DNA of 64,000 bases from Polystyrenella longa (lineage in GTDB: Bacteria; Planctomycetota; Planctomycetia; Planctomycetales; Planctomycetaceae), in NCBI RefSeq assembly GCF_007750395.1, contig NZ_CP036281.1:3185001-3249000 (forward strand). The letters are read 5' to 3'. The notes under the pieces are model-generated. The model saw only the letters and a list, made by a program, of their open reading frames with translations, was not told where the DNA came from and ran no database searches. Position numbers and translations under genes: made by a program. This document shows positions 1,735 to 28,980 of the stretch, in pieces. Numbering within the stretch: the stretch's first letter is position 1; every line of letters starts with the position of its first letter.

Positions 1735-4575
1735 TTAACTCCTGCTAAGTTCGGGAGAGGATTGAAAAGGAATGTTGTTTGATTGAGTCTGAGAACGTTC
1801 TCGGTTCGGAAAGCGGGCTCGCCACCATTGGTGAACCCGGTCGAGCAAGAATCGCTGTCGCTGATGCTGTTGCCGGGCCGCTTTCATTATTGGTGAAGGT
1901 GTACCCTGCATCATCTCCGTGGCAGTCAACTGTTCTCCGGCATTCTGAATCGCCCGTCTTACCGCCGCTTTATCGTCCACGTAGATCGTGACTTCTTCAC
2001 GACCGCGTGACACGGTCACATAGAACTGCTTGGCATTCACAGCGGGAAGTGACTGGGAGCCGATAGCGGCTATCGCCACGTCTCGGTCCTTACCCTGGGA
2101 AGCATGGCTTGTCACGACATAACCCAGGTCCCAATGTCCATAGTGGCGTGAAACGGTCATTCCACTTTTAAGCTTGAGATCGCCATGCCGATCAAAGCCG
2201 GTAATTTCATCCAGACGGCCATTGCTAATACGCCGTTTGTGGTCGGTTGCTTTGCCTCCCAGGGTAAACCGGATTTTGTCGCCGACCGAGAAGCGGGTTT
2301 GAACTTCCTCATAAACCTCAAACCGACTGGCAACCTCGCGCGGAATTGGCTTAAGCGGTCCCCCTTGCAGCGGGGTCAAAGCCGCCTTCCCTTCCGTATC
2401 GCGACAAACGCGATAGCGTTCCCCCCGTTTATAACCCCCTTTAACATTTTGGTGGAATTGCACCACCAGTCCGGCTTGGTCGTAACTACTAGCCTCCGAC
2501 TTCTCCGCTTCCGACCAGTTCAGCGACTGCAAGCGACTAAATTCGACACTCTCTAACCCTATCGCCCCCTTTTTTCTTAGCCGCTCGCGAATATGTTCGG
2601 TCACCGCCCGGCCTTCCGCATGGGTAGGAGCCACAATCAGCGTGCTCTGCTTCTTTTTGAGGGACTTGAGATATTGCTTTGCCAGAACGTCATACCGTTG
2701 GTCCGCACCAATCTCTTTAACTTTGCCCATTCTGTCCAACAGGTCAAAGCCTGCCACCATGCCCGAGAGCCCTCTTTGGGGGTCCACTATAGTATGCCCC
2801 TGGCTAATCAACTCGACCGCTTTCTTATAGCGGTCCTTTTGCCGTTGAATGGTTTCCACCCGAGCAATATCTAAACCGGCTTTCGCTTCCAGCAACCGCA
2901 TCGCTTCTCCCCGACGGGGTGAAGCGTGTTGCCGCGTATCGCCGGACAGCACCACGCGTGCGTTTTGCTGCTTTGCAATCGCAAAGATGCCGTTCATCGC
3001 TCGCACGTCCAATAATCCCGCTTCATCGATCCAGAGGACTTGATCCTTCAATTCCGAGTGGAGCTTTTCGTTCCGTAGCAAATGCTCGACCGTCTGAGCA
3101 TTCTCAAACCCTTTTTCTTCCAGAACTTCACGGGCTCCGGTACTGGGAGCAAACACAAAGACCTCTTTACCATTACTACGGATCGCTTCCGCCGCTTCTT
3201 CCATTAACGAGGATTTTCCCGTACCAGCTCCCCCCGTGACGGCCATCACGGTATCGCGTGAATTCAATACGTGTCGGACTGCATTCTTTTGGGCTGAGTT
3301 TAACCAGTCCCGTTTGAACTGGTGTTCTTTCCGAGCCATCGTCATTCGCGTTCCCCGGCCCTCTCTGGCAAAGCCGATCATACGCGTCTCGGCATCAAGG
3401 ACTTCGCGTGTCGTAATGAAATCCCGCTTGGCTCCGCGTATCTCTTGCGAACCATGCAGGATCGTTTCTGTTTGCAAAGCGGCTTCAAGCTCTTCGGGCA
3501 ATAGGGTTAATCCATGTTCTAAAGCCGTTCCGATAACGGTCTGTTTTTCCACGGTCGATTGACGATAGAGGTGATGTTCCAGGGCGTAACGCAGGGAAGC
3601 TTCTACCGTGGCTGCTTTGTCCTGGTTTTCTGCTTTGTTCCGATCACGAAGTGATTGGAACGTTTCCTGTTCTTGCAGGGTTAAACGGGAGACCCACTCC
3701 TCTCGCAGTTGTTCCACCGTCGAACCCCGTTCTTTCTTTTCGCGGGTTCTCACTCCCAGCTTTCCTTTAGCGGCAGGTTCTGCAATGCCGTGCTCTTCCG
3801 CAAAGCTTTCAATTTGCTGAGTGCGGCTACTGAACTTCTCGATGGTCGCCCGGTCGATCCTCTTGATCTCCCAGCCCGCTTTCATGCGTCCGCTTTGCAG
3901 GAAGCGGACTTTTTCAACTTCATAACCCAGCTTGTGGTGGAGGATGCGCGCGAAGCGAGCTTCAAATTTGGCTTGCAGGCTCAACCGTTGCCGAAAGATT
4001 TCTTCTAACTCGGCGGCGTAGTGTTTTCCTGCATGGCTGGTTTGATTCATCACAAAAGCGTGGATGTGGAGGTGTGCGTCGACTTGTCCATTGACCGGTC
4101 TCGACGTTTTATGCAGGAAGTCGGCATAGATCAGGTTGCCGGTCTGGACCCGTTCTTTGGAAGCCGCTTTGTCACCGGCACGAACCCGGCGACACATGAG
4201 CGGTTCCACGTCCCGAGTCATCGTCTCTTTCACCGCTTCCCGTAACGCGTCCAGGATGGTTTCATCCCGGTTGATGGCCCACACTAAAGAAACACTCTTC
4301 GGAATGGAAAACGTAAGATCGACCCCAGGCCTGCGGTCTTTACGCAGACGTTGAACCAGTTTCTTTCCTGTAACGGGATGATTGCCAGAAAGCAGGGCTT
4401 TGAATTCCTGCTTGGTGACTACGCTGCCGCTGCTTAAGCCCAGGATCGCGGCTCCTTTCCCATTCCAGGTTCCGTTGACCTCGGCATCGGAACAGAAATA
4501 GTCACCCTGCGTCAGAACCGTGTCGAAATATTTTTCGGTTCCGGTGATGCTTTTCGCTTGGGTCATGGTGAGCAT
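1735..4575 (-). CDS. MobF-family conjugative relaxase-helicase (TrwC/TraI type)
   Basis: A 946-residue protein with the two-part layout of MobF relaxases. The N-terminal TrwC relaxase domain (about 1-300) has candidate catalytic tyrosines Y17 and Y26, the segment DLTFSIPKSVSL at about 86-97, and the metal-binding histidine triad in AHLHIHAF (H168, H170, H172). A superfamily 1 helicase follows, with Walker A GGAGTGKSS near residue 450, a Walker B-like LWIDEAGLL, and a C-terminal motif region (VTSHASQGKD, VTVSRGREEV). Known members nick oriT, stay bound to the 5' end and unwind the plasmid strand for transfer. It is shorter than F TraI (about 1756) and close to R388 TrwC (about 966). MTQAKS at 4566 is an alternative start. 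Confidence 0.93.
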   Translation of the reverse strand: MLTMTQAKSITGTEKYFDTVLTQGDYFCSDAEVNGTWNGKGAAILGLSSGSVVTKQEFKALLSGNHPVTGKKLVQRLRKDRRPGVDLTFSIPKSVSLVWAINRDETILDALREAVKETMTRDVEPLMCRRVRAGDKAASKERVQTGNLIYADFLHKTSRPVNGQVDAHLHIHAFVMNQTSHAGKHYAAELEEIFRQRLSLQAKFEARFARILHHKLGYEVEKVRFLQSGRMKAGWEIKRIDRATIEKFSSRTQQIESFAEEHGIAEPAAKGKLGVRTREKKERGSTVEQLREEWVSRLTLQEQETFQSLRDRNKAENQDKAATVEASLRYALEHHLYRQSTVEKQTVIGTALEHGLTLLPEELEAALQTETILHGSQEIRGAKRDFITTREVLDAETRMIGFAREGRGTRMTMARKEHQFKRDWLNSAQKNAVRHVLNSRDTVMAVTGGAGTGKSSLMEEAAEAIRSNGKEVFVFAPSTGAREVLEEKGFENAQTVEHLLRNEKLHSELKDQVLWIDEAGLLDVRAMNGIFAIAKQQNARVVLSGDTRQHASPRRGEAMRLLEAKAGLDIARVETIQRQKDRYKKAVELISQGHTIVDPQRGLSGMVAGFDLLDRMGKVKEIGADQRYDVLAKQYLKSLKKKQSTLIVAPTHAEGRAVTEHIRERLRKKGAIGLESVEFSRLQSLNWSEAEKSEASSYDQAGLVVQFHQNVKGGYKRGERYRVCRDTEGKAALTPLQGGPLKPIPREVASRFEVYEEVQTRFSVGDKIRFTLGGKATDHKRRISNGRLDEITGFDRHGDLKLKSGMTVSRHYGHWDLGYVVTSHASQGKDRDVAIAAIGSQSLPAVNAKQFYVTVSRGREEVTIYVDDKAAVRRAIQNAGEQLTATEMMQGTPSPIMKAARQQHQRQRFLLDRVHQWWRARFPNRERSQTQSNNIPFQSSPELSRS

Positions 4576-6217: not shown

Positions 6218-6544
6218 TCAATCGAGGCAATCCCAAAGCGGGATAAACAAAATCGGAGGACAACCTTGATTTCCGTACTGCCCGCTTTCGACATGTTGCC
6301 AGCCGGTAAGACTGAAGTACCAGGCGTCTAATTTCTGCTCAGTAGTCGGAGCAGAGCCTTTCGGCTTAGGTCCGGAATAGGTATAGGTTGTCTGAATGTG
6401 GGGTAAACCAACCACAATGGAAGCGATGAGCAGCAACAAAGCCACGACTCCCAGCACACACATCTTTTGGAAGTAGCGACGGAAAGTACCGACGACCAAA
6501 TCCAAGTCATTGTCTTGCTTTTGATGAGACATATTTTTATCCAT
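6218..6544 (-). CDS. Small single-pass membrane protein coupled to the T4CP gene
   Basis: A 108-residue protein with one strong transmembrane helix at about 31-47 (VLGVVALLLLIASIVVGL), a short basic cytoplasmic N-terminus and a C-terminal domain of about 60 residues ending in a Cys-containing tail (NQGCPPILF, WDCLD). Its ATG overlaps the stop region of the coupling-protein gene by 8 nt, so it is translationally coupled to it. It may assist the coupling protein at the inner membrane. The family is not recognised. Confidence 0.65.
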   Translation of the reverse strand: MDKNMSHQKQDNDLDLVVGTFRRYFQKMCVLGVVALLLLIASIVVGLPHIQTTYTYSGPKPKGSAPTTEQKLDAWYFSLTGWQHVESGQYGNQGCPPILFIPLWDCLD

Positions 6545-8213
6545 GGTAATAGGGTGAATGGCCCGCCCGTTCTTTCAAATGAGGCCGTTTCCAGTAAGGA
6601 ACTTTTTGAAGCTGTAGGGGAGGCAAGTTGCCGCCGACAATCAGCATTTCTTCGCCACTCATCATGCGAATCTCGTCAGCTCTTAACAAAGGCAGACTGC
6701 GATGATTCAAACTGACCGTCAATTCAGGCAGGGGTTCGGCTTTCGCCGCCCGATCTGATAGAGACGGATCGACCACTGCCTGGGTTCCACACAGCTTGCT
6801 AAACATTTCAAGTGTTTCCGGTTCCTGCAAACCCATGGCGATTTTGAGTTTGCTGGCAGACATGATTTGACGCAGGCCCACTTTGCCATAGTTTTTCTCG
6901 GCTTGACCGGCGAGGTCCTGCCAGATGAGTAAACAACGCAGGTTGGCTTTGCGGTAGAACAGGAGGGAAGTAGCGAGCCGAGGCATCACTAGGCTTCCGC
7001 ACTCATCAATAATGGCGGTACAGCGACCTGCTTGCTTGTCGGCGGCAAGCGTGCCGAACAAGTAAGTCAGCGTCATCGCCGTGACCGGAGCCACGGTTTC
7101 CATCATCTCCAGCGTCGAAATCAGAAACAGTGCTGTCTTCTGGTGAGGATCTTTGAGTACACGGGGATCGAACTTCGATTCCGCTGTATGTTTTCCTAAC
7201 GAGGAGAAATGGTCGAAAACATCCAAAGCTTGCTCTGCGATCCCATAGCCCCCCGCAAATTGTTGCGGAGCCGCAACCAATAATCCTCCTAAAGATTTGG
7301 CGAGTTCTTCATAGACCCCACCGAAAGCGGTGGAGCCTTCCGCTTGCTCAAATAACTCCCGAATATAGGCGAGCCCTTCCATCAAGTGCCGCCGAATGGC
7401 GGGTAGAGTTGGTTTGCGACCTTCAGCCAGTTCTTTGAGAGCCAGAAAACCTCCCAGCATGCGGGCATACTTAAAAAAGTATTCACTCTTTTCATCCATG
7501 TCCGGACGTCCGGGCATTACCCAAGTCATAATGGCGAGTAGTCTTGGTCGGATGCTGGTCAGGTTCATATCGGCATCGAACCCAGAAAACAGATCGAGAC
7601 CCACGTCGATCACTTCTTCTCCGAGACGCTGACTCACTTCTTCCGGAAAAGGGGTCATCACCACGACGTGGTAGTTCTGTTGTTCAAGAGCCGCTTTGCA
7701 TAACGCATAGATTTCTCCTGAAGGGTCATTTATGATTAAGTTTTGCTCCGGATTAGCGAGACAGGTTGGCACGACCAGACTCATTGTTTTTCCTTCACCT
7801 GGAGGCGCGATCAGACTGAGGCTTTGGGGGCCATCAAAGAAAACATCGATGGAAGAATTCTTTCCTGTCCGTAGTGTTCCCAGGAAAATGCCTTGACGGT
7901 CAGAAAAGAGTTCGGAATCGGTAATATCCTGGGCATTGGCAAAACGTCCCTGCCCGTGTGCTTTGGCTCCCGTTTTGAACCGTTGTTGCTTAAGCCGCAG
8001 AGCGGATCGCTTGAATCGGTCGTTCATACTTTTTATCACCTGTCCTATTGCCATAAACCCGGTGAGGAGACAGCCAAAGGTGGACCACTCCTCGCCTTGC
8101 TGGCCCCAGAGATAGAGTTGATAAGAAATCAGACTCCAGAAACCACTAAACAGCAGACTGATGAAGGGGGGACGATATTTATCTTGGTTCGTTGCTGATG
8201 GTTTAGTGCTCAT
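6537..8213 (-). CDS. Type IV coupling protein, VirD4/TraG/TraD family
   Basis: A 558-residue protein with two N-terminal membrane segments (about 17-35 and 44-60) followed by a RecA-like ATPase. Walker A is APPGEGKTMS near residues 134-143, preceded by QSLSLI and followed by NLIINDPSGEIY, a hallmark of VirD4/TraG proteins. Walker B is AIIDECGSL near residue 400, followed by LLIWQDLAGQ. Coupling proteins dock the relaxosome to the type IV secretion channel and energise DNA export. AAGGGAG lies 8 nt before the ATG. No VirB4-like ATPase or channel genes are visible in the window; they may lie to the left or be supplied in trans. Confidence 0.9.
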   Translation of the reverse strand: MSTKPSATNQDKYRPPFISLLFSGFWSLISYQLYLWGQQGEEWSTFGCLLTGFMAIGQVIKSMNDRFKRSALRLKQQRFKTGAKAHGQGRFANAQDITDSELFSDRQGIFLGTLRTGKNSSIDVFFDGPQSLSLIAPPGEGKTMSLVVPTCLANPEQNLIINDPSGEIYALCKAALEQQNYHVVVMTPFPEEVSQRLGEEVIDVGLDLFSGFDADMNLTSIRPRLLAIMTWVMPGRPDMDEKSEYFFKYARMLGGFLALKELAEGRKPTLPAIRRHLMEGLAYIRELFEQAEGSTAFGGVYEELAKSLGGLLVAAPQQFAGGYGIAEQALDVFDHFSSLGKHTAESKFDPRVLKDPHQKTALFLISTLEMMETVAPVTAMTLTYLFGTLAADKQAGRCTAIIDECGSLVMPRLATSLLFYRKANLRCLLIWQDLAGQAEKNYGKVGLRQIMSASKLKIAMGLQEPETLEMFSKLCGTQAVVDPSLSDRAAKAEPLPELTVSLNHRSLPLLRADEIRMMSGEEMLIVGGNLPPLQLQKVPYWKRPHLKERAGHSPYYHG

Positions 8214-8271: not shown

Positions 8272-9711
8272 TTACTCCAAAGCGAAGTATTCCCCAGAGG
8301 TACTCTGAGCCAGTCGTGTCAAGAACTCCCCTCCGCTCCAGTCAAAGTCCTCGTTGTGAACCGAAAGGCCTCCCACACCGACGCAGTGAACTTTGATCTT
8401 CTGTACTGTTAACGTTTGGCCGAGCTTCAAAACGGCTCCCTGGCCACCTTCGCCTAAAGTCGGGATTCCATCCGAATAGAGCAAACAAGTCATCGGCCCG
8501 TTCAAGCTCACCGCTTCCTGCAGCGCGGCGAGAGTGGGAGTCCCTCCTCCCGCTTTTAACTCTTTCACGAATTCGATGGCTTGATCTCGGTTCTCGCGTG
8601 TCGCTTGGGCCCAGTGCAGATTGGAAATGATGGATGAGGGGTACTTCGAAAGACGAGGGGAAAGGTCTTCTTGTCCTCCGAAGCCACAGATTGCAAATTC
8701 TTCAAACGGCATCTGGTCTATTTTTTGGCAAACATCAGCTTTGATTTTCTCAAAGACTTCTGGTTGGCTATTCCCTTGGGCGTCAAAGGCAACTGAAGCA
8801 GAGGTGTCGGGCAAAAACAGGACTCGGCCCGAACTCTCTTCTAGGAACTCCAGTTCAGGTTGGCGAACTTTGATCGTTAGATCAGGTTTGATTTCCACGA
8901 TTTCAGTTTCACCATCCTCATCGAAGAGAACTGTTTTTGCCTGATCTTGATCCACCTTTTTCAGCCCCGTGCATTCATCGAGTGGAGTCACACTATCGTC
9001 CCACTGGGATTGCGGGTTGTTGAACACAGCCTCCGCATCAGAAGAAATCCGCAGGAACTGAGCTTGCTTCTCTTGAATGAGATACCGCAGAAAGTGTTCG
9101 ACCTGGGCTCGATGATTGGGACCGTTCCCGTAATCGGCACGGGTCGTGAGCCAACTGATCGTTGTGTCTTCCGGGAACGTTTCCATTTTCCCGTAACTCG
9201 TTTCAGGATTAGTGACACTGCCTTCACACGGCATTTGTGTTGCTGACAGGGAGAGTCCTTGTTCTCGATCCTTAATTAATGGAGACCCAATTAGGATCAC
9301 TCGCGGTTTAAGTTTGGATTTTCGAAATTTGCGAATGGTGGCAGGGATGGAAATCAGATCGATCTCTTTTGAGCCTCCCGATAATTCTGGGTCGAGCCGT
9401 TCAAAGACTTTAGTGAGTTGCTCCTTAATCAGTCGTTTGCGGTAGGCTGGGGACCCGGCAGGAATCGTGATAGAGCCCAAAGACTCTTGGTTTTCTGTCA
9501 GGAAGAACGTCATCGGCGTTCCCACAGGAGCCGATTCCATCGTGCTGAGCAGGTTAGTTCGAATGGAGTGCCCCAGTTCTATTGGCACCCCCATCGGTAA
9601 TCCCAGAAAGATTTCCTCGGTAGGGTTTGGTGCGATGGATTCCGTCGCACATCCCGTTAAAAGTAGAAGCGTCGAGACGATGGATCGTGAAAGAATGCGT
9701 CGAAGTAGCAT
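8272..9711 (-). CDS. Lipoprotein with C-terminal von Willebrand A domain
   Basis: A 479-residue exported protein. The signal peptide ends in a lipobox (LLLLTGC, Cys about 21), so it is probably membrane-anchored. The N-terminal half (about 30-260) is unrecognised. From about residue 295 there is a vWA domain with the MIDAS motif DTSAS (DxSxS), a conserved threonine region GGGTPTLAAL, and a strand ending YSDGIPT. vWA domains bind ligands through a metal ion. GAGGA lies about 8 nt before the ATG, and the gene is in line with the coupling-protein gene. A vWA lipoprotein inside a transfer operon suggests a role in mating contact or envelope assembly, which is inference. Confidence 0.75.
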   Translation of the reverse strand: MLLRRILSRSIVSTLLLLTGCATESIAPNPTEEIFLGLPMGVPIELGHSIRTNLLSTMESAPVGTPMTFFLTENQESLGSITIPAGSPAYRKRLIKEQLTKVFERLDPELSGGSKEIDLISIPATIRKFRKSKLKPRVILIGSPLIKDREQGLSLSATQMPCEGSVTNPETSYGKMETFPEDTTISWLTTRADYGNGPNHRAQVEHFLRYLIQEKQAQFLRISSDAEAVFNNPQSQWDDSVTPLDECTGLKKVDQDQAKTVLFDEDGETEIVEIKPDLTIKVRQPELEFLEESSGRVLFLPDTSASVAFDAQGNSQPEVFEKIKADVCQKIDQMPFEEFAICGFGGQEDLSPRLSKYPSSIISNLHWAQATRENRDQAIEFVKELKAGGGTPTLAALQEAVSLNGPMTCLLYSDGIPTLGEGGQGAVLKLGQTLTVQKIKVHCVGVGGLSVHNEDFDWSGGEFLTRLAQSTSGEYFALE

Positions 9712-9780: not shown

Positions 9781-10977
9781 TTATTCAGGCTGTTTCAGTT
9801 CCTCAAAAGCTTGTTGGGCCAGGGTGGCCTCTACGTCAGCGAGGGCTTTGCTGCGAGCAGCGTCTCGTGATTGCGACTGGACTTTCTCGTACTTCTTAAG
9901 TGATCGCCAATGAGCGAGAACGCGGCTCTCATACTCCTGGGTTACAGTCTCTGTCCGTTTAGAAAGCTCCAGTGCGTTCGACTGCTGCAGAATGAATTTG
10001 CCCAACGGTTTGTCAATAACATTCAGCTCTGCGGCCATAAGTTCCAAAGCGGGGTTCTTTTTCTTCCGCATCGGGAACGCCAGCTTGCCTATCCAGACGG
10101 CTAGCTCTTTCGCTCCCATCGCTGCACAGATGAGCGTCCCCGCCGAGATTGGTACGATCAACATTGGCCAGCCGAACCGAGCTCCTTCCTCGACATGAGT
10201 GCTTCCCAAGGCGAATCCAATCACGGTTACTCCAATCACCGAGAGTTTGGCTCCGGTGCGACTGACGAGGCGTACGGCCCAGTGGACATCGAATTTTTCT
10301 GCATACATCCAGAAGCTGAGGGCAAAGAAGGAACCGAAGCTAATTGCAAACACCAGGCCCCGAGCCCCCCACTCCGATTGTGCGAAGCCCCAGTCAGACT
10401 GGAGGGCTACCTCTTTTTCGAAAATAAATTCGAACCCGAGCAGAATGCTGGCGACCGAAAGGGCAGCCAGAACGCCGACTAAGATGAAGGAGCGATTTCT
10501 GGTAAACAGGACCGGTCCCCCTAAATTGAACTCATCGAGTTTGACCGGAACCGTGATCTCATCGGGCTCGTTCTCCAGTTTGCTGTTCAGTCGAGATCGC
10601 CGTGTTTGCAGTCGCTGCTTTTGCAGGGAGATTTCTTCGATAGCTCCTTTAGCCAGAGATCGCCAACGTGAGAGCTTCGGGTCACTCATGGCAGAAGAAG
10701 TCGCCCAATTGGAGACTTCTTGTTCGTTGGCGAAGCCAGAGAGGCTCTCGGCGGTAGGGGTTGGAAAATGAGGAGGATCTTCGGATAAAGCAGACGTTAG
10801 TTTGTCGAAATCAATCGACTCGATTTCTGGGGATGGTCCAGTGGGGCTTAACGGAGCGGCTGGTGACCCTTCTTTGATCAAACGGTTTTCTTGATCAGAT
10901 TTCTTTTGACGCATGGCCGGTTCGTCAGGGGCCGAACTTGCCCAAGGATTTGAATTCAGAAAGTGGTTTTCAGACAC
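9781..10977 (-). CDS. Four-TM membrane protein of the transfer operon
   Basis: A 398-residue protein if started at the GTG at 10977, which has AGGA 8 nt upstream; the ATG at 11079 would add 34 unlikely residues. The cytoplasmic N-terminal region is followed by a helical segment rich in Lys/Arg/Gln. Four membrane helices follow (starting at SFILVGVLAALSV, GLVFAISFGSFFAL, LSVIGVTVIGFAL and MLIVPISAGTLI), then a C-terminal coiled coil of about 90 residues (LELSKRTETVTQEYESRVLA). No family is recognised. It may be a structural part of the mating apparatus, judged only from its place in the operon. Confidence 0.65.
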   Translation of the reverse strand: MSENHFLNSNPWASSAPDEPAMRQKKSDQENRLIKEGSPAAPLSPTGPSPEIESIDFDKLTSALSEDPPHFPTPTAESLSGFANEQEVSNWATSSAMSDPKLSRWRSLAKGAIEEISLQKQRLQTRRSRLNSKLENEPDEITVPVKLDEFNLGGPVLFTRNRSFILVGVLAALSVASILLGFEFIFEKEVALQSDWGFAQSEWGARGLVFAISFGSFFALSFWMYAEKFDVHWAVRLVSRTGAKLSVIGVTVIGFALGSTHVEEGARFGWPMLIVPISAGTLICAAMGAKELAVWIGKLAFPMRKKKNPALELMAAELNVIDKPLGKFILQQSNALELSKRTETVTQEYESRVLAHWRSLKKYEKVQSQSRDAARSKALADVEATLAQQAFEELKQPE

Positions 10978-11135
10978 GTTAATAATCCTGATAAGTGGAG
11001 ACAGGGTTAGAACAGAGAATCTCGAATAGGAAGTATCGAGTCCCCCACAAAAAGCTGTTTTCTTAGCACGTATTGACATAGCCTCTCCGTGATACTGAAA
11101 AGGCTTTGACGGATCTGCGAGTTGAAATTGGTCGT

Positions 11136-11330: not shown

Positions 11331-11829
11331 GAATTCCCCTCTATCCAAGACTGATGAGTATTTCCGGGATCAATAAATAGGTTTTAGACCAGACTCCCCC
11401 ATTCTAAAAGTATTTACTTGTACTCACAAGTAAATACTTGTTTTGGTTTAAAAAAAACTGGACTTATTTGAGATTGGACATCTAAAGCATGACTTAGCTC
11501 AATACCATCAAGTCTTTCAGCTTCTTAAAAACAGTGACACTTACGATCGCTCTGTGAAGGGAGACGTTCCCTAAAGCTTCTCTGGCCTCCAATCAAAATG
11601 CAGGAATACAACGGCGAAGTATGGCGGCGACTGCAATGCCTTTGCAGATAGATAAAAGCAGAGTGAGTGTAGGTCGGAAGTTAGAAGGCTCTGATACAGG
11701 AGGAAGCAATGAGTAAGTGATATGGTGACGATTAAAGACGTCACCTACTTGTTGATACCTCCGGCAAAATACTCAAGTACATCCAGACTCTGTCATCAGA
11801 AGTTACCAAACATGAATGAGCAAACTGAT
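11331..11829. promoter_or_regulatory. Gene-free AT-rich stretch with a strong inverted repeat
   Basis: About 500 bases without a convincing gene. It separates the transfer operon from the CHAT operon. The conspicuous element is the inverted repeat at 11408-11439, described separately. Nothing else I can name is visible. It probably carries the promoter of the minus-strand transfer operon. Confidence 0.5.
11408..11439. repeat. 14-bp perfect inverted repeat, candidate operator or oriT element
   Basis: Left arm AAGTATTTACTTGT (11408-11421), four-base spacer ACTC, right arm ACAAGTAAATACTT (11426-11439); the arms are exact reverse complements. Each arm also contains its own small palindrome (AAGTA-TT-TACTT and AAGTA-AA-TACTT), giving four AAGTA/TACTT half-sites in 32 bases. 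There is no T-run on either side, so it does not look like an intrinsic terminator. It lies 78 bases upstream of the first gene of the transfer operon. A binding site for the RHH-like protein at 5.3-5.6 kb is one possible explanation. Confidence 0.7.
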
Positions 11830-13152
11830 TCACTCAAACCTCAGTTCTGGTAGTCGATTACTTGATTTGAATTGCCCCCCCGAGGAACGATACACCCGAA
11901 AGCTGAGACCACTAGTCGTAGACGGATTTGTTCTGAATGCCTGTAAGCTACAGGCCACTTCCTCTTTATTATCCTTGCAAATCAGCTTCACTTTCAAGTA
12001 TTTTTTGATGGTCTTAACCGCATCGGCAAGGATGACTTTTTGGGAGTCGTCAAACTCATTCCCTCTGTGGTCTAGCAACCACCGATTAATTTCTTCTTTC
12101 TTAATCTGATCTTCCTTCAGACCGAAGACTTTTGCAGCCCTAATCAGTCGTGATCTCGCCGCAACGTCTTCGATTTCATCGATATATTCAGCTACTTCCT
12201 CAGCCCTTTTGGCAACGGCGTTCAAAAGTTCTTTTATGCTCACGTCCGCTAGGACTGATTTCTTTTCTGACAATCCTTGACGTCTTAACCTCTCAGGTAA
12301 AATTACATCATCTTTATCAGCATGCCTGAAATCGGTGAACGTGTCAATTTTCTCACTCCATAAATCGATTCCATAGCAGCGATGGAGGTACTTGAAGACA
12401 CCGACAATCTCTTTCTTTTGATCGTCCGTCAATTTCTGGCTTTTAAGACCATTAAGATAGGCATTGATCGCCTCGTTGGAGAATATGGCATTGGGTGAAC
12501 CAAACACGACAGCATGGTAACTTCGATCACGGATGATCTTAACGGCTGCACGTAAATCAGCTTCTGACATCCGCGTCAATACGGTCATCCGCTCCTCGTC
12601 ACTCAGACGGCAAAGCTGCTCAACGAGTACCTCAAGAGCCCTGTTTCGACCTACGCGATCCCACTGTGCATTCGGCGGAGCAGTCACCGCAATCACGAAA
12701 TGAGTAACCTGACGAACAGCCTCTCTCTCAGCCCTCAACAATTTGATCGGCTTGGCAGGGTCACTCTTATCAACAGCAATACTCCCCCTTCTCGTCTTAT
12801 TTAACCTGGGGTTAACTGAGTGACTTATTTCTTTCGGTGCATGCTTCAGAACGGCAGCGTAGAATGCTTTGATCCGGGTAGACAGTTCCTGCTCACCATC
12901 TTCTGTGGCCACATCGACGGCTTCCACGGCGTGAGCAGCTTCGATAATTGAATCAATAGGACGTTGGCCTACTTCCCCCTCCCACAACTCATCGCAGGTT
13001 TTAGGCGACCATCCGGGCTGCTCGCCCGTGCCATCGACCCCTGAAAGCCACTTTTCAACAATGCTTAGACCCACTTCATCGGTATTAAACAACCTGTCAG
13101 ACAGTTTATTCGCTTCATCAGCGGAAGGGCGTTTGGATTCAAAATCACTCAT
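11830..13152 (-). CDS. Unrecognised 440-residue partner of the TPR-CHAT protease
   Basis: A 440-residue soluble protein with no signal peptide, membrane segment or nucleotide-binding motif that I can see. It is mostly helical and charged, with several Lys/Glu-rich helices (SIKELLNAVAKRAEEVAEYI, SRLIRAAKVFGLKEDQIKK). The last 50 residues turn beta-like and basic (GLSFRVYRSSGGQFKSSN). It starts 44 nt after the stop of the CHAT gene on the same strand, with AGG about 8 nt before its ATG, so the two form an operon. In other CHAT systems a partner protein is cut by or regulates the protease; here that is only inference from linkage. Confidence 0.75.
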   Translation of the reverse strand: MSDFESKRPSADEANKLSDRLFNTDEVGLSIVEKWLSGVDGTGEQPGWSPKTCDELWEGEVGQRPIDSIIEAAHAVEAVDVATEDGEQELSTRIKAFYAAVLKHAPKEISHSVNPRLNKTRRGSIAVDKSDPAKPIKLLRAEREAVRQVTHFVIAVTAPPNAQWDRVGRNRALEVLVEQLCRLSDEERMTVLTRMSEADLRAAVKIIRDRSYHAVVFGSPNAIFSNEAINAYLNGLKSQKLTDDQKKEIVGVFKYLHRCYGIDLWSEKIDTFTDFRHADKDDVILPERLRRQGLSEKKSVLADVSIKELLNAVAKRAEEVAEYIDEIEDVAARSRLIRAAKVFGLKEDQIKKEEINRWLLDHRGNEFDDSQKVILADAVKTIKKYLKVKLICKDNKEEVACSLQAFRTNPSTTSGLSFRVYRSSGGQFKSSNRLPELRFE

Positions 13153-13196
13153 AACATGTACCTAGTCAACTGCTCAGATAAAATCTGACTCTTAGT

Positions 13197-16100
13197 TCAT
13201 TGTGAAACACCGGATGTGAAGAATGCTGCCCAGAATACAGGCGATTGGAAAGGGGGAGTTTCAGAATCTCGCCAATGCTTCAAGACGCTCTCGCAGTCCG
13301 CTCGAAGACTGTGGTCGGATATTCCAGTAAACATTCCCATCTTTTCAACATAGTCCGCAGTTGCGGGGCCATCTTCAAGGCACTCCGCCAGATCATCTGG
13401 GACACCACGCATCCATCTTTGAGTCTGATCCAAAGCACGAGCAGGACTCAAACCACTGAGTAAGCGTTCATAGAATCGAGTAACTAAAATTGCGGTGGCT
13501 AAATCATCCACCTGCCACATGGCAAACACTCCGACTTTCATTCCGGCAACTAAGAAGGCAGTGGGAAATCCAAAGTGTTCATCAACTTCATCTGGCTGAA
13601 CAATACCACCTTCACAGCACGCCAACACGACCAATGTCGCATTTCGGAATTTGATGGTCTCCAGAACATCCTGAACGGAGAAAGTGACCTTTACGTTACC
13701 ATTTTCCCAAAAGACTAAGCTGGAGTTTAAAGGATCGTCTTGATCATAATAACCATGTCCCGAATGGTGGAAAATATCTATCTCAGCGGATGCCGCTCTA
13801 AGCTGGTGTACGACTTCGGGGGTAGAATCAAGATATTTTGCATTTGTACCAAAAGCAACGGTCAGCATCTTCTCCTCAATTTCAAGGAATTCAAGATCAG
13901 CCGTTCTTCGCACGGAGAGCATCCGTTCCATAGGTCCACGTGATCGTTTAAGGCACTGGCTTAGCACCGAGAAGCTAGGGACATAGTGGATCGAAAACTC
14001 ATCGCAGAGAAACTTGTACGGCTGTCGCCCCGGACAGATGTGGAAGGGAAATGAGTGCAATTCTCGATGAGGGACGATGATCAACGATTGGATGGAGTTC
14101 GGTAGCTTAGGGTAAACCGAGTCAAACAGCAGGTTGCCGAGACGGTCCAGAAGAGGCCGCATTAGTCGACCCCAGCGCATTGAGTTAAGCTTTCCACCTG
14201 AATCACATGAGTTTTGGTAGGCCGCCGCCCACTCACGGAGAATTGATTGCGTTTCTTCACGAGTTGTTTGAGGATATTCGATCAGTTCGACCGTTGCGTG
14301 GGTCACCACCACACAAACCGCTACTCGATCAGCCATATGAAAATAGAGGAAAGCCGTTTGTTCATCGGGTAGCATCTCTCGGATTTCACTCAATTCGAGC
14401 GGAGTAAATACATTCAATACTTCAAAAGCAGGAATTTGCTCTTCGATTCTTTTTTGAATTGCTTTCAGATCGTTTTCATATTGATGTCGCTGTTGATGTA
14501 GTTCTGGTTTTTCAAGAATCAAGAAGTCAGCGGTCACCTTGGACATCTCCTCGATTTTTAAGTCAGTACTTTCCAGGAAGTGATCCGTATAGAAAAGTCG
14601 ATTATTCATTGCCGAGATATTGGCTTGGGTATCCCGAAGTTGAGCCAAAAGCTTGCCGTCAACTACTCCTTCCAGTTGGCAATAATCGTTTGCAAGGACA
14701 CTTGATAACGAACGCATACGGCTCATTTCGGAAAATTTCAATACTTCGTTTGCGATGTCCTCCTTTGATCGACCACGGTCCAAACGTATAAGCAGGACTT
14801 GAATGAGACCATCGAACACATCCGACAGGCTGTATTCTAAACCCTGTAAACCAGAAGGACTCTTAGTACCTACCCGAATCTCCTCTGATACCTCAATGGC
14901 CATGCGCAGGGCCGCTTCTGCAATATCCAGTTGTTCTGCCGTGCTTGCTGCAGACAATGTGGGAATCAGCCGTCGAGCAAAGATTTCACTCGCTTTCATT
15001 CGCAGTGAAGGTGAGTGGCTTATCCCTTGTCTAAACATATCTCTGCAGATTATCCATGCCGTTTCGGCATGCTGTCTGGCAGCTTCAGAATCATCTAGTT
15101 TAGCGAGAGTTTCCGAATAATTGAGATACAATGATGCAAGTAAATGGTGTTTCTTATGACTTTCAGTCCGATCATCATCCTGAATTGTTGCGATGGCACT
15201 CTCGAAAACATCTTTTGATTCTGTCATGCGATGGCAGTGATTTAATGCAGATGCATATAACTCCATCGCCAATACAAGTTTTTCACTTCCTTTCTTTAAG
15301 CGGGTTTCAAACTCTTTCTCTCGAATTCTGACTGCACTGGCAGACGAAGACAGGGCTTCCCCGGGGAGGTCGATTTGAATCAACGCCATAGCATGATTAT
15401 TATAAAGCCCGGCGAGAAGATCGCAGTAATTTATGGGATCGCGAGCATAAAGCGGTTTAACAATTTCAATTGCCTCCTCGGCAGTATGAATCGCCAATCT
15501 TGGCTGGCCCATATCAAAGAGAAATCCTGTGTAATTGCGAAGTGAGCTCGCGTACTCCACTTGGTACCCTCCTTTGGTATCTTCAACAAGCTGTCGTAGC
15601 ATTCGAACGGCAAACACATGATAAGCGTCTGCTTTTTCTGCATCACCATTTTTCGAGAGAAGAATTGCGTAGGCTTGCATAGTTCGTGATCGCTGTAAAA
15701 CATCCTCTGGTAAATCCTTGTCTACAAAGGTCTTCCACCCTAAATTTGCGAGCAATAGCAGCTGACGAGCTTCCTCATAATTATTATTTCTTTCGTATTC
15801 AATCGACGCCTTATCGGTTAATTCAGATAAAAACGGCCGAGCAATTCCCGCTAACACTTCCAATGTGCCCGCGTTAATAACGGGTGTGTGGGGCGAACTT
15901 TTTAACAAATCCTCATGAAGTTCGATGAGCCTAGCCACTGCACTCGGAAGGTCGCCATGAACACCACAATGAGTCACCTCAACCAATGAAGCAAATGTGG
16001 ACAAGTGCTTATCGCCCAGGCGTTCTGCCGCAATAATTACAAACCTAGCAGCCTTGAGAACTCGATCTTGATGAGATTTCGCTGAACGCCTAACGAAGTC

Positions 16101-16433
16101 AATATTAAGACTTCGTTCTATTATACTGGCGTTTGGAAGGACTTTGAGCGTGTCAAGTTGCTCTGAAGTCCAACGCTTTTCAAACAGTAGCCATGTCGGG
16201 GTCGAAACCACACTGTGATAACTGATGTACAAGCACAACCAAATTCGTTGCCAAATCGAAATAACTGAAGCACTTCGGAATACTTCCTGAAGTCCTTCCT
16301 CGGCCTGGTTCTCAAGAGGGTGCGGGATAATTGAAAGCCGAAGCAGTGCGGGCCAATCCTGAGCTTTGATGAAGTTACTGATTTCCTCGGCCTGAGGTTC
16401 ATTTTCGTCTTTCGAATTGGCCTGTTTTGCCAT
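13197..16433 (-). CDS. TPR-CHAT caspase-like protease (defence candidate)
   Basis: A 1078-residue protein when started at the ATG at 16433, which has AAGGTGG about 6 nt upstream; a TTG at 16595 would add 54 atypical residues. Residues about 150-600 are helical repeats consistent with TPRs (for example NNYEEARQLLLLANLGWKTF, LAIHTAEEAIEIV). The C-terminal 300 residues form a CHAT domain with catalytic His893 in HSGHGYY and Cys939 or Cys940 in LACCEGG. It also has the CHAT-typical SLIIVPHRELHSFPFH and a final ALDQTQRWMRG helix. CHAT proteases are clan CD cysteine peptidases related to caspases and act in several bacterial immune and cell-death systems. It is co-transcribed with the 440-residue gene. 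Confidence 0.9.
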   Translation of the reverse strand: MAKQANSKDENEPQAEEISNFIKAQDWPALLRLSIIPHPLENQAEEGLQEVFRSASVISIWQRIWLCLYISYHSVVSTPTWLLFEKRWTSEQLDTLKVLPNASIIERSLNIDFVRRSAKSHQDRVLKAARFVIIAAERLGDKHLSTFASLVEVTHCGVHGDLPSAVARLIELHEDLLKSSPHTPVINAGTLEVLAGIARPFLSELTDKASIEYERNNNYEEARQLLLLANLGWKTFVDKDLPEDVLQRSRTMQAYAILLSKNGDAEKADAYHVFAVRMLRQLVEDTKGGYQVEYASSLRNYTGFLFDMGQPRLAIHTAEEAIEIVKPLYARDPINYCDLLAGLYNNHAMALIQIDLPGEALSSSASAVRIREKEFETRLKKGSEKLVLAMELYASALNHCHRMTESKDVFESAIATIQDDDRTESHKKHHLLASLYLNYSETLAKLDDSEAARQHAETAWIICRDMFRQGISHSPSLRMKASEIFARRLIPTLSAASTAEQLDIAEAALRMAIEVSEEIRVGTKSPSGLQGLEYSLSDVFDGLIQVLLIRLDRGRSKEDIANEVLKFSEMSRMRSLSSVLANDYCQLEGVVDGKLLAQLRDTQANISAMNNRLFYTDHFLESTDLKIEEMSKVTADFLILEKPELHQQRHQYENDLKAIQKRIEEQIPAFEVLNVFTPLELSEIREMLPDEQTAFLYFHMADRVAVCVVVTHATVELIEYPQTTREETQSILREWAAAYQNSCDSGGKLNSMRWGRLMRPLLDRLGNLLFDSVYPKLPNSIQSLIIVPHRELHSFPFHICPGRQPYKFLCDEFSIHYVPSFSVLSQCLKRSRGPMERMLSVRRTADLEFLEIEEKMLTVAFGTNAKYLDSTPEVVHQLRAASAEIDIFHHSGHGYYDQDDPLNSSLVFWENGNVKVTFSVQDVLETIKFRNATLVVLACCEGGIVQPDEVDEHFGFPTAFLVAGMKVGVFAMWQVDDLATAILVTRFYERLLSGLSPARALDQTQRWMRGVPDDLAECLEDGPATADYVEKMGMFTGISDHSLRADCESVLKHWRDSETPPFQSPVFWAAFFTSGVSQ

Positions 16434-16706: not shown

Positions 16707-16751
16707 GATGCATAAAAGAAAAGTGACCAATCGCCTGAAGTTTGGGTGATC

Positions 16752-17729
16752 ATGGTTAAGCAGAAATCAGCCAAGCCTGCCCGACGGGATATCTATCAGG
16801 AGATCACTGATCAAATCCTTGCCCTACTGGACCGAGGCACGGTTCCCTGGCAGAATCCCATTCGGCGGGGAACGGGGAATGGATGGCCCAAGAATCTAAC
16901 CAATAACAAACAGTACCGAGGCATCAACGTATTTTTGCTGGCAATGCAGGCTTGGGACCAAGGGTTTGGTTCAGACTACTGGCTCACCTTCCGACAAGCT
17001 AAAGCCAAAGGGGGCTCGGTTCGTAAAGGAGAGCAGTCTTCTCTGGTTACGTTTTGGAAACTGGTTCAGAGTAAAGAGAAAGAAACCAACGAGAAAATTA
17101 CCTTGCCCGTGCTACGTCATTACAATGTTTTCAACGTTGAACAGTGTGAGGGAATTAAACCACCGGATGAGCCAGAGAGTTCTGCAGAAGCAAACATTTT
17201 TACACCGATTGAACAAGCGGAACAGCTTGTCTCGGGTTATGCTGATGGACCTGAAATCTCCACAGGCAGTTCCAAAGCCTGCTATCACCCCGCTTCGGAC
17301 AGAGTGAGCATCCCTTCGCCCGAACGGTTCACGGAAGCGGAAGAGTATTATTCCACCCTCTTCCATGAATTGGTCCATTCAACAGGCCATTTCAAGCGAC
17401 TGGCACGCGGGTTTAATCAAGGCCAGTCAGTCTCGTTTGGCTCTCCCGACTATTCCAAGGAAGAGTTGGTAGCCGAGATGGGAGCCGCTTTCCTCAACGC
17501 GACTGCAGGAATCTCCGTGCCAACGATTGAACAATCTGCGGCTTATATCGACAACTGGAAAAAGAACATTAAGGGAGACAAACGCTTGGTTGTCTCTGCA
17601 GCCGGTGCGGCTCAGAGAGGAGTGGACTGGATACTGGGCGAGCGGCCCACTACCGCTTCGGAACAGGCAATCGTACCTGCTGCTGACATCCCTCCTCCCT
17701 ATAGCCCCAACGACGGACCGGTGGTTTGA
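16752..17729 (+). CDS. ardC: ArdC-type antirestriction protein (ssDNA-binding + zinc metallopeptidase)
   Basis: A 325-residue protein from the ATG at 16752. The N-terminal domain (about 10-130) has the ArdC/DUF1738 signature: RRDIYQEITDQILALLDRG, VPWQNPI, then YRGINVFLLAM and a conserved WLTFRQAKAKGGSVRKGE. The C-terminal domain carries the zinc-protease motif HELVHSTGH (about 204-212) with a downstream Glu-rich segment (YSKEELVAEMGAAFL). ArdC from conjugative plasmids protects incoming single-stranded DNA from host restriction. It diverges from the CHAT operon and converges on the primase-like gene, overlapping its 3' end by 31 nt. Confidence 0.88.
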   Translation: MVKQKSAKPARRDIYQEITDQILALLDRGTVPWQNPIRRGTGNGWPKNLTNNKQYRGINVFLLAMQAWDQGFGSDYWLTFRQAKAKGGSVRKGEQSSLVTFWKLVQSKEKETNEKITLPVLRHYNVFNVEQCEGIKPPDEPESSAEANIFTPIEQAEQLVSGYADGPEISTGSSKACYHPASDRVSIPSPERFTEAEEYYSTLFHELVHSTGHFKRLARGFNQGQSVSFGSPDYSKEELVAEMGAAFLNATAGISVPTIEQSAAYIDNWKKNIKGDKRLVVSAAGAAQRGVDWILGERPTTASEQAIVPAADIPPPYSPNDGPVV

Positions 17730-18715
17730 ATTCGCCCAGCTTTCAAGGCGTCTTGAACGAGTACCTGATTCCAATCGGAGCCTCGTGCTGGAGGACGAAC
17801 GTCTTTGAATTCTAAATCACGACGTCCCGTCTTAGAAACAATTACCTGCAGTCGCTCCGTGAGCTCATCCCCTCCTGGATCATTATCAAAGGCGGCGATT
17901 ATGTGGGAGTTCTCTGTCATCCGTTCTATGGCCATTCGGAGTAGTTTCGGTTGTTCTGGATTCATTTTCCCACTAATCGAAGCGACTCGGGTTCCTTCTG
18001 TTCCCTGCAGGGCTAAATAGGAAAGAGCGTCTAGCCCACTTTCGGCCACCGCCAGGGTATGATCACCTTTAAGTGCCGTCGACATCCAGAGGGCCTTACG
18101 GCCCCCTTTACTAAACATGTTCACATTGGGTCCCTTGATTTCATACCCGACTAAACAGCGTTCACTCTTCTCTTTTCCCGCTTCGTAGCCCCAATGGGGA
18201 AAAGCAATCGATCCTCCTTTAGGGGAATGGCGTATCTGGTCCCGCAGTCGTGGGCTTTGGAGCAACTCAAAAGGAATTCCTCGCTCATGACACAAATAGG
18301 AGTGTGGTTGGGCGATAGGATCAAACTTGGAGTACCGGGCGGCCACTGCAATCAAATCGGTTTCACTGGGACGAATCTCTGCCGCGTACTTACCAGTATA
18401 AGATTGCTGGATCGTAGTGAGGTAGCTTTGGTTCAGGAAAGGACGGAGCAATTGCCGCACACGGCCCAGAGAACAACCTGGCTCAATCACGGTCTGAATG
18501 AAGTCAATCGCCGTTCCGCTTCCCAGATTATGCACGCTACAGAAGATATAGTGATCTCCATTCTGGGAAATGATGATTTTGTCCGCACCGTTTGCCATCA
18601 GCACCGAATGTCGTGTGGACTTCTTACGGTTGATTTCATACCCGTAAGAACTGGCGATGATGCTTAAGTTCACGCGTTTGAACTCCTCCAGTTCCGAGCG
18701 GCGATCATAGTTCAT
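17699..18715 (-). CDS. Toprim primase-like protein (DUF3991/Toprim_2 type)
   Basis: A 338-residue protein from the ATG at 18715, which has GGAGG 8 nt upstream. The N-terminal region contains a degenerate CHC2-like zinc segment (YIFCSVHNLGSGTAIDFIQ). A DUF3991-like middle section follows (YLCHERGIPFELLQSP, IAFPHWGYEAGK). The Toprim fold has its catalytic Glu in AESGLDAL near residue 225 and the DxD-type metal site in AAFDNDPGG near 278. Such proteins are common on plasmids and integrative elements and are thought to prime DNA synthesis during replication or after transfer. The 3' end overlaps the ardC-like gene tail to tail. Confidence 0.8.
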   Translation of the reverse strand: MNYDRRSELEEFKRVNLSIIASSYGYEINRKKSTRHSVLMANGADKIIISQNGDHYIFCSVHNLGSGTAIDFIQTVIEPGCSLGRVRQLLRPFLNQSYLTTIQQSYTGKYAAEIRPSETDLIAVAARYSKFDPIAQPHSYLCHERGIPFELLQSPRLRDQIRHSPKGGSIAFPHWGYEAGKEKSERCLVGYEIKGPNVNMFSKGGRKALWMSTALKGDHTLAVAESGLDALSYLALQGTEGTRVASISGKMNPEQPKLLRMAIERMTENSHIIAAFDNDPGGDELTERLQVIVSKTGRRDLEFKDVRPPARGSDWNQVLVQDALKAGRIQTTGPSLGL

Positions 18716-18756
18716 GTTTGGTCCCTCCTCCGGGTTCTGCTGATGGCCTCGGGAAT

Positions 18757-19299
18757 TTAGCCAAAGAGCCGCTTCCATACCGACTTTTGTCGCTCATTGT
18801 GCAACGCCCGTTTGAGTTGATTGAGTTCTTTGTTGTGGTGAGTCTGTATTTCCTCGATTTGAGCTTGGGTCTGCTTTGCGATTTTCTGGCTCATGGTTTC
18901 GAGTGACGTTTGCCAGTCGGACGTCTCTCCCGTGCGTTGTTCGAGCAGTAGGGTCACTCGGTTTTGTCCCTCCTGGGCTTTGTCGAGTGCTTGCTGCAGA
19001 TGTTCGATCTGCGAAACATACTGCCGGGTCAGTTGTTCTTGCATTTTCTTGATCGTGGCCAGGCTATCGTCGGTGACGTCGTTTGGTTTCGGAGTGGCGG
19101 GAGCCCCTTTCCGCTCTTCGCGGTCGAAATTACACGCATCGCCATAAGCACGGATTAACTCGGAGGCTTCAATAACCTTGTTTCCATCATGATCAAGTGC
19201 AAAAGACAGTTTGCCAGCCGACATGTGCCGGGAGACGGTGGCTCGACTCTTGCCAATAATGCGACTGGCGGCAGAGATGGAATATTTGGTGTTTGTCAC
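18757..19299 (-). CDS. HTH plus coiled-coil plasmid protein (KfrA-like)
   Basis: A 180-residue protein. An N-terminal helix-turn-helix (about 5-50: ISAASRIIGKSRATVSRHMS, then a wing and VIEASELIRAYGD) is followed by a long coiled coil (about 78-170, LTRQYVSQIEHLQQALDKAQ). This layout is that of KfrA-type plasmid regulators and related DNA-binding proteins, which bind operators near replication or partition regions. It lies 41 nt upstream of the primase-like gene, in one operon, and next to the palindrome-rich region at 19.4-19.8 kb, which may contain its binding sites (inference). Confidence 0.65.
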   Translation of the reverse strand: MTNTKYSISAASRIIGKSRATVSRHMSAGKLSFALDHDGNKVIEASELIRAYGDACNFDREERKGAPATPKPNDVTDDSLATIKKMQEQLTRQYVSQIEHLQQALDKAQEGQNRVTLLLEQRTGETSDWQTSLETMSQKIAKQTQAQIEEIQTHHNKELNQLKRALHNERQKSVWKRLFG

Positions 19300-19957: not shown

Positions 19958-20022
19958 AGAAAAAAGCCGCCTTGGTAATAAGGCGGCTTTGTGTAGATTT
20001 GAGCCAGGCTCGGTGATTGTGC
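19958..20022 (-). ncRNA. Candidate antisense RNA controlling repC
   Basis: On the minus strand a -35-like TTGCAA (20052-20057) and -10-like TAGAGT (20029-20034) are separated by exactly 17 bases, placing a start near 20022. About 30 bases later a strong hairpin (19963-19990) followed by six Ts (19965-19960) forms an intrinsic terminator. The predicted transcript is about 65 nt and antisense to the repC leader. In repABC plasmids a short antisense RNA of this size, encoded just upstream of repC on the opposite strand, represses repC; position, size and orientation here match. Each promoter box matches consensus at only 4 of 6 positions, so the call is a prediction. Confidence 0.55.
19963..19990 (-). 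terminator. Intrinsic terminator of the antisense RNA
   Basis: Arms AAGCCGCCTT (19964-19973) and AAGGCGGCTT (19980-19989) are exact reverse complements with a six-base loop, extended by one A-T pair. Read on the minus strand the hairpin is followed by six Ts. On the plus strand it is followed only by TTTGTGT, so it is best read as a minus-strand terminator, though it may also attenuate plus-strand repC transcription. Confidence 0.75.
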
Positions 20023-20150
20023 AATTTCACTCTAGCGCTGTTCAAACCGAATTGCAAACATTAATGAGTTTGCAACAGGTTTCTGCACACTTTTTTTCGC
20101 CGCACGTTCCGTGCAGCCAGAGGTTATGGAAGGGTCGCCAGTTCAATGTT

Positions 20151-21437
20151 ATGCAACATATTTCTACACAAACGATTCCATTTACTTTAAGTCAAGGAGG
20201 AGGACGCATTGCTTCGGACCGCTATCGGCACTCACTCGCACAGTGCGACCACTTCAGAGGATTAGCAGAGGGAACCAGTCGTTACGATCTCTTGCTGCTG
20301 GTTAAGAAAGTCGGCAAGCTTGCCGGTTTCTCGCCACGCATGATCCAGCTACTCGATTATTACATGGCCTACACCCGTGAAATCGACTGGGAGGAGGGGA
20401 GTCGTCCGATTGTTTATCAATCCTTATCCCGTACCGCGCTCGACATGGGTGTATCGGAACGCCAGATTCAGAAACTGGAGCAGCAATTATTTACGGTGGG
20501 AGCCATCACCTGGAATGACAGTGGCAATCATCGACGATTTGGGCAACGTGATCGGACCACAGGCCGGATCGTTTACGCCTATGGGATCGATTTGACTCCT
20601 CTCGCCTTCCTTCGTGAAGAACTGGAACAGAAGCTCCACGAAAAACAATTGCGTGACCAAGCCTGGCTTGAAACAAAACGTCAAATCTCGGCGTGCCGTC
20701 GACAGATTCGGAGTTTGTTAGCGGAATGGAGTTTGGAGGAGGGGGCTTCCGAGCATGAACTTCACGCCTTCAATGCACGCTACGAGACCATTGCCGTTCA
20801 ACTTCGCACGTATTTGGATTTGGAAACGCTGCGGTCGCTGTTATTGCGGCATCAATCATTGCACGAAGAGATCATGACTGCGATGGGAGTAGGGGCTGAA
20901 GATACAAACCCTGCTCAGGAGACGTCAGCGGAGAAAATAGCGTCTAAAGGTTCATCCCAGAACGTCAGTAAGTTCGCTCACTACAATTACTCCACTCAGT
21001 TAATAAATAACTGTAGTCCTGAAGACCTTGGCTTTCAGAAAAGCGAGGGGGAACCCTCGTCACCTCAAGATATCATTTCAGCGACAGGTTTGCAGCATAT
21101 CAGTTTGAGCCAGGTGCTCGGGACTGCGAGTGATCGGTTCAAGGCCTACTTACCGTTGAAAGCAGGGGCGATGGATTGGCAGGATGTGACGGAAGCCGCT
21201 TATCGAGTTCGCGAAGACCTCTCGATTAGCCAGCAGAGTTGGGGAGAGGCGTGTGAACTACTGGGCCGGACGGGAGCTGCTCTCTGCGTTTTGCTAACGG
21301 ATCAAGCGAATAAGCGAAGTGTGAATCCGGTTACCAAACCAGCAGGGTATTTTAGAAGTCTGATCAACAAAGGCCGAGCCGGGGAGTTGCGACTGCACAA
21401 TTCCATCTTTGGACTGCTGGAGCAGCATGAGCGATAG
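20151..21437 (+). CDS. repC: RepC-type plasmid replication initiator (repABC class)
   Basis: A 428-residue protein from the ATG at 20151, chosen because family members begin shortly before the conserved block. Residues about 35-170 carry the RepC N-terminal (RP-C) signature: EGTSRYDLLLLVKKVGKLAG, FSPRMIQLLDYYMAYTREID, IVYQSLSRTALDMGVSERQI, then ITWNDSGNHRRFGQRD. A charged helical linker and a C-terminal RP-C_C-like domain (VTEAAYRVREDLSISQQSW, PAGYFRSLINKGRAGEL) follow. RepC initiates replication of repABC plasmids, best known from Alphaproteobacteria, and the origin usually lies inside repC. An AT-rich stretch at about 20985-21015 would fit that. RepA and RepB are absent from the window. An upstream in-frame start at 19989 is less likely. 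Confidence 0.88.
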   Translation: MQHISTQTIPFTLSQGGGRIASDRYRHSLAQCDHFRGLAEGTSRYDLLLLVKKVGKLAGFSPRMIQLLDYYMAYTREIDWEEGSRPIVYQSLSRTALDMGVSERQIQKLEQQLFTVGAITWNDSGNHRRFGQRDRTTGRIVYAYGIDLTPLAFLREELEQKLHEKQLRDQAWLETKRQISACRRQIRSLLAEWSLEEGASEHELHAFNARYETIAVQLRTYLDLETLRSLLLRHQSLHEEIMTAMGVGAEDTNPAQETSAEKIASKGSSQNVSKFAHYNYSTQLINNCSPEDLGFQKSEGEPSSPQDIISATGLQHISLSQVLGTASDRFKAYLPLKAGAMDWQDVTEAAYRVREDLSISQQSWGEACELLGRTGAALCVLLTDQANKRSVNPVTKPAGYFRSLINKGRAGELRLHNSIFGLLEQHER

Positions 21438-27347: not shown

Positions 27348-27691
27348 AGATCGATTTTCGCATAAGTGTGTTCATTTTAAGTAGGGGTATGCGACAATAG
27401 TTGATGCGAACATTACAGGTCCCAATATTTCATCCAAATGTCGGAATAAACAATTCATTTGTCTTCCAAATTCTTACTGATTAAAGAATTGAGGGAGGGA
27501 GAACTATGAACTGGGCTAAGATGTGGATAATGTTCCGAATACTCAATGAGTTTCATCCTGTTTGTTATATCTGCGTAGAATTACTGTAACTGCGCTACTA
27601 CAGATAGGGTACGCATTGAAAAGTTACTCATGCTATGTATCACATACAGTATCTATGTGTGATATACTATCCCTTAAGCAATATTTCAGAA
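27348..27691. promoter_or_regulatory. Gene-free AT-rich stretch with imperfect operator-like repeat
   Basis: About 340 bases without a gene. Near 27635-27668 there is an imperfect inverted repeat, TATCACATA facing TATGTGTGATA, which may be a regulatory site for the DUF4365 gene. The rest shows nothing I can name. Confidence 0.35.
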
Positions 27692-27722: not shown

Positions 27723-27739
27723 GCAAGGTGAGCTGAATC

Positions 27740-28975: not shown

Positions 28976-28980
28976 GCAGC

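Follow-up and report, generated by a model that had tools for sequence, protein, structure and literature searches.

Which protein does the CHAT protease encoded at this locus act on, and is the gene immediately behind it part of the answer? In the window (the whole 64,000-nt stretch of DNA analysed here), P0001 (13197..16433, minus strand) encodes a CHAT caspase-like protease of 1078 amino acids (aa) with a weak TPR signal. P0002 (11830..13152, minus strand), which starts 44 nt downstream of P0001 on the same strand, encodes an orphan protein of 440 aa. Our best reading, by analogy with characterized systems, is that the CHAT protease would act, in defence or in a conflict between elements, on a dedicated partner that diverges fast. 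The initial annotation had described the two open reading frames (ORFs), and their coordinates, lengths, strand and 44-nt spacing were all confirmed. The P0001 frame stays open upstream to a TTG at 16595 (equivalent to 1132 aa); the 1078-aa start is favoured because a Shine-Dalgarno-like sequence, AAGGTGG, sits just 5′ of the ATG at 16433.

The CHAT domain of P0001 (residues 760–1075; 13209..14156, minus strand) matched PF12770 with E=3.6e-40 and 138.7 bits, against a Pfam cut-off of 24. His889, His893 and Cys940 were invariant in all five CHAT proteins aligned. The predicted catalytic His893 (codon 13755..13757, minus strand) aligned with the His of HGEAN in PDB chain 8d9g (“CHAT domain protein”), and the predicted catalytic Cys940 (codon 13614..13616, minus strand) with the Cys of GACETD in the same chain, which we take to be a type III-E TPR-CHAT protein. 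P0001 is thus a member of the CHAT family with a predicted His/Cys dyad, and proteolysis is its predicted activity. The CHAT domain and His893 had been named correctly at the outset; the proposed Cys939/940 comes down to Cys940, the second Cys of ACCEGG. As for the TPR-like repeats described together with the CHAT domain, the CHAT part stands and the N-terminal TPR signal is weak (TPR_12, E=1.8e-5), falling beneath the cut-off (25.3 versus 30.1 bits). Relatives of P0001 were detected in 110 of 297 genomes, counting its own, mostly over the CHAT part. A plasmid search matched 66 records, none covering 80%; no relative was found in viral contigs, and a search of the genome_contigs collection with a two-row P0001 alignment confirmed none. 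Of the six CHAT genes in its own genome, two lie inside the window. A second cargo cluster in the window (25158-32724, plus strand) encodes a CHAT protein of 729 aa and a TIR-TPR protein of 1139 aa, together with a DUF4365 protein. The DUF4365 protein also matched the PADLOC Aga_REase models (E=2.4e-22), which are presumably Argonaute-associated.

The claim that the partner is unrecognised was borne out by both family and homologue searches. P0002 matched no Pfam model above cut-off and nothing in NCBIfam or PADLOC, and no homologue was found in genome_contigs, plasmids, phages or viral contigs, where single-protein scans of this kind pick up close relatives only. A search of 149 related genomes (its own included) returned P0002 itself only. 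Against 392 genomes of the phylum, 16 weak stretches were obtained in 15 genomes besides its own (best E=0.0059, with E up to 0.1 for one genome), and the best of these lay inside an ORF antisense to a longer ORF. No CHAT gene was detected at E<=1e-3 near the 16 stretches, several of which are on short contigs. One candidate family, phrog_1848, matched at E=0.008 over 66 residues only and was treated as a chance hit; across 59 genomes it gave weak matches only, in nine of them (its own included). By our own estimate, an open frame of 440 codons would be very improbable as a chance event, and the GC content by codon position in P0002 resembles that of the neighbouring genes. The protein is charged, has no membrane-type hydrophobic stretch and contains none of the informative motifs searched. 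A whole-chain model was mostly helical and of low confidence (pLDDT 43.8), and the C-terminal part (residues 296–440; 11833..12267, minus strand) was modelled by AlphaFold2 from the single sequence, at modest confidence (pLDDT 63.8), as helices followed by strands. The check by structure prediction and Foldseek that had been suggested for this protein was run and gave no credible fold match for residues 296–440 (Foldseek best E=0.31; VIA-align best Z=3.4).

The pair sits between a transfer operon and a block of ArdC, Toprim and RepC genes. On the left, all on the minus strand, are a MOBF (TrwC) relaxase gene (1735..4575; PF08751, E=1.5e-67), a T4SS coupling protein (T4CP) gene (6537..8213; PF02534, E=4.4e-39), a VWA-like gene of the transfer block whose product has a lipoprotein-like start by eye (8272..9711; PF13768, 19.9 bits, below the cut-off of 27), and a 432-aa gene (9781..11079) that has no Pfam match and looks by eye like a membrane protein gene. 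The last is the first gene of the transfer block and forms one boundary of the slot that holds the pair. The other boundary is an ArdC-like gene (16746..17729, plus strand; PF08401 and PF18818), beyond which lie a DUF3991/Toprim gene (17699..18778, minus strand), a 180-aa gene (18757..19299, minus strand) next to RepC, and a RepC-type replication gene (19989..21437, plus strand; PF03428). ArdC is divergent from the pair, which reads toward the transfer operon and stops 750 nt short of it. The module had been called conjugative, which is too strong, as no VirB4-type ATPase (PF03135) was found anywhere in the genome. Because a relaxase and a coupling protein are present and no VirB4 was found, the element is likely to be mobilizable rather than self-conjugative. 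One of the plasmids at ranks 2–4 among the relaxase matches is shown as Planctomycetota, and we assume that the other two are as well, which makes a host of this phylum probable.

Related elements place the pair in a variable slot. A search of genomes with the VWA protein matched G294, a genome of another family in the same class, beside the best CHAT relative there. On one strand, G294 carries genes for a 1136-aa CHAT protein (weak TPR), a 369-aa orphan, a 393-aa protein, a VWA-like protein (E=1.1e-11 against that of the window) and a coupling protein (T4SS-DNA_transf, E=4.2e-9). The 393-aa gene corresponds to the 432-aa gene of the window by position and alignment; phmmer does not link the two. 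Beyond the G294 CHAT gene, past other genes, are homologues of ArdC (E=6.8e-104), of the 180-aa protein (E=4.2e-33) and of RepC (E=1.5e-139), with the orientations that they have in the window; no Toprim gene was found at this locus. The CHAT and orphan pair of G294 thus has the same place, order and orientation as P0001 and P0002, which counts in favour of our reading. A G258 stretch has relatives of the 432-aa gene (E=5.4e-07), the VWA gene and the T4CP gene; no CHAT gene was found in it, and the replication block was not seen within that stretch. In G300, contig 77 tracks the window from a 132-aa gene through the relaxase (E=0), T4CP (E=1.2e-192) and VWA genes to the Toprim and 180-aa genes, and contig 126 does so from the T4CP gene, past VWA, as far as Toprim and RepC; neither stretch yielded an ArdC gene. 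The slot of contig 77 (L140:11374-14445) holds genes for a DUF932 protein, an HTH protein and a 182-aa protein without a Pfam match. That of contig 126 (L139:4309-10927) holds an ECF sigma factor gene, a Ser/Thr kinase gene whose product matches the PADLOC PD-T4-6 models, and an N6-methylase-like gene.

A CHAT gene was present in 2 of 19 stretches with a VWA match, the window counted; these were the stronger matches only, several are short, one (G103) ends at the slot, some share the VWA gene alone, and three (L130-L132) were checked for CHAT by phmmer alone. Where the T4CP was also recognised, in seven stretches (the window, G294, G258, G300 twice, G317 and G310), two had a CHAT gene. A second VWA profile search, covering 343 genomes of the phylum, returned only the genome itself, G103 and G108, all already seen. 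Since the related elements keep parts of the flanking blocks yet differ between them, the pair appears to be dispensable for transfer and is most simply read, from gene order, as cargo that occupies a variable slot in a MOBF/RepC element, in agreement with the mobile cargo suggested initially. The GC3 values of P0001 and P0002 are 0.43 and 0.48, and the second CHAT gene and the TIR-TPR gene also fall within 0.43–0.48. Seven backbone genes lie above the pair at 0.52–0.57, which counts for our reading; the DUF4365 cargo gene is backbone-like at 0.55, which counts against it.

Whether the G294 pair is the same module was examined at several levels. In local alignments of P0002 with the 369-aa protein, 191 of 1000 shuffles scored as well, which is not significant; for the C-terminal part the number was 82 of 1000, and the 369-aa protein was outscored against P0002 by 12 or more of 822 other ORF ends. 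End-anchored comparisons were made at five lengths, uncorrected for this number, and three of the five were better than most shuffles: for the C-terminal 95, 110 and 140 residues, 12, 29 and 19 of 2000 shuffles were as good, as were 2 of 212 real ORF ends at each length. For 60 and 80 residues the counts were 182 and 315 of 2000 shuffles. Searched against the 147 genomes around G294, the 369-aa protein found itself only. An 82-aa ORF in the 246-nt gap at G294 was considered as a missing N-terminus and rejected, because similarity was lacking (248 of 1000 shuffles did equally well). A CHAT tree of 53 domains, drawn from 55 proteins after two with short domains were dropped, neither unites nor rejects the window and G294 proteases, since joining them costs 2.4 lnL units (p-AU 0.20). 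The similar sizes of the two pairs count for a common module. We call P0002 and the 369-aa protein positional equivalents; homology between the two is no more than suggested.

The surroundings of other CHAT genes were compared in 39 genome stretches (two sets of 20, minus L035, which nearly duplicates part of L034) and six plasmid stretches, which together gave 55 CHAT proteins, the window's two included. A same-strand ORF of at least 150 aa immediately downstream was present for 34 of the 53 other CHAT genes and absent for 19, where ORFs were called mechanically, some antisense ORFs were included and some loci were cut short. Many CHAT proteins thus seem to need no such partner, as those 19 have none, and this weighs against our reading. 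Other CHAT genes in related genomes and on cyanobacterial plasmids share the protease domain, but no P0002-like ORF lay alongside them in the loci compared; the best other match in the whole set had E=1.1.

Characterized CHAT and caspase systems offer partial parallels. As in Borvo, whose BovA is, we assume, a CHAT defence gene, a CHAT-type protein is found here in what may be a defence setting; unlike Borvo, the locus has two genes, and P0001 covers 72 of 711 positions of the BovA model with 14.9 bits. With respect to gasdermin pairs, no gasdermin was among the PDB sequence matches of P0002. P0002 also lacks HxHxDH, the motif of metallo-beta-lactamase nucleases, and so differs from the partners in the caspase-nuclease (canu) and gated nuclease-protease pairs. 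In these pairs the protease is reported to activate a separately encoded partner in defence (PMC12799240), and P0001 with P0002 would resemble them in this respect. The closest comparison is Csx29 of type III-E (Craspase): P0001 likewise has a putative repeat region and a CHAT domain with His and Cys aligned. Csx29 is reported to cleave its partner protein Csx30, and the H615A/C658A substitution to abolish cleavage (PMC10028731); the Csx30 cleavage site is reported to vary among orthologues and not to be conserved (PMC11106740). Because the site differs between orthologues, a diverging partner would fit, and such pairs can co-diverge. P0001 reached 60.8 bits against a Csx29 model cut-off of 300, over residues 779–987 only; P0002 matched no Csx30 chain among PDB sequence matches to E=10; and no direct repeats of >=24 nt (exact seed 14) were found in the window. 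We saw no description of this CHAT and orphan pair in the literature searched, which is not proof of absence. PMC8195603 has no mention of CHAT as a whole word and PMC10910872 has one, in a legend, with nothing on the pair.

The pairing of P0001 with P0002 is thus suggested by the dyad-bearing CHAT protein, the 44-nt spacing on one strand, the variable slot and the second pair in G294. We tentatively propose, as a real possibility, a two-gene cargo module in which the CHAT protease acts on the 440-aa partner by cleavage, with defence as the outcome. The protease would be inactive at rest, and its putative N-terminal repeat region would sense a cue such as a phage or a competing element. Once activated, P0001 would cleave P0002 and thereby switch it on or release it, and the freed P0002 would carry out or relay the response. 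We infer each of these parts, from sensing and cleavage to P0002 as the substrate and defence as the outcome, and the pair may form a compact immunity or conflict module that changes quickly. The initial suggestion that P0002 is a substrate or regulator would be favoured by the operon layout, by the Csx29 precedent and by the G294 pair. The absence of any detectable P0002 homologue, and with it of evidence for co-occurrence, weakens the proposal. The same layout of two genes would also suit a P0002 that regulates or adapts the protease, as inhibitor, sensor or scaffold, with the true substrate encoded elsewhere. A charged protein with no membrane stretch or informative motif, mostly helical in a low-confidence model, would be in keeping with such a role, and nothing specific opposes it except the precedent that Csx29 cuts a CRISPR-associated partner protein (PMC10028731); we consider it a doubtful but serious alternative.

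It is less probable that the pair serves the element itself, through entry exclusion, control of transfer, or the death of cells in which it is lost or rejected. In two elements the pair adjoins the transfer operon and reads toward it, but the G258 and G300 stretches keep their transfer genes with no CHAT gene found beside them, so transfer does not seem to need one, and the G300 slots carry genes for a kinase, a sigma factor, a methylase, DUF932 and HTH proteins instead. Least probable, in our judgement, is that P0001 and P0002 are chance neighbours in a cargo slot and P0002 an unrelated orphan gene. The lack of any P0002 homologue, the lack of P0002-like ORFs beside other CHAT genes and the unproved homology of the G294 pair would all agree with this, but it sits poorly with the 44-nt spacing on one strand and with a second CHAT and orphan pair in the same place and order.

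To our knowledge, the substrate is known for only a few bacterial CHAT proteases. Here the orphan in tandem, together with a second pair at the same place in G294, offers a direct candidate. If the substrate does diverge rapidly, the protease would face a lock built anew in each case. A wider family of element-borne CHAT protease–substrate pairs, with an orphan substrate in every element and revealed by slot and gene order, is a rather doubtful extension. The slot also marks a site for cargo in planctomycete-type mobile elements, where more modules may be found by position rather than by homology.

Some further features of the region were recorded. Promoter and terminator scans gave signals no better than those of shuffled sequences, which counts against the proposed module. 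Within the 750 nt that separate the pair from the transfer operon lies a perfect inverted repeat of 14 nt with a loop of 4 nt (11408-11439), possibly an operator, a terminator or a transfer site. A ParE-type toxin gene (54-383; PF05016, E=2.2e-10) is located at the left end of the window. Outside the window, approximately 15–18 kb to its left, a tRNA-like ORF lies between two genes that by eye resemble tyrosine recombinase genes (L061:2201-4968), a possible integration site.
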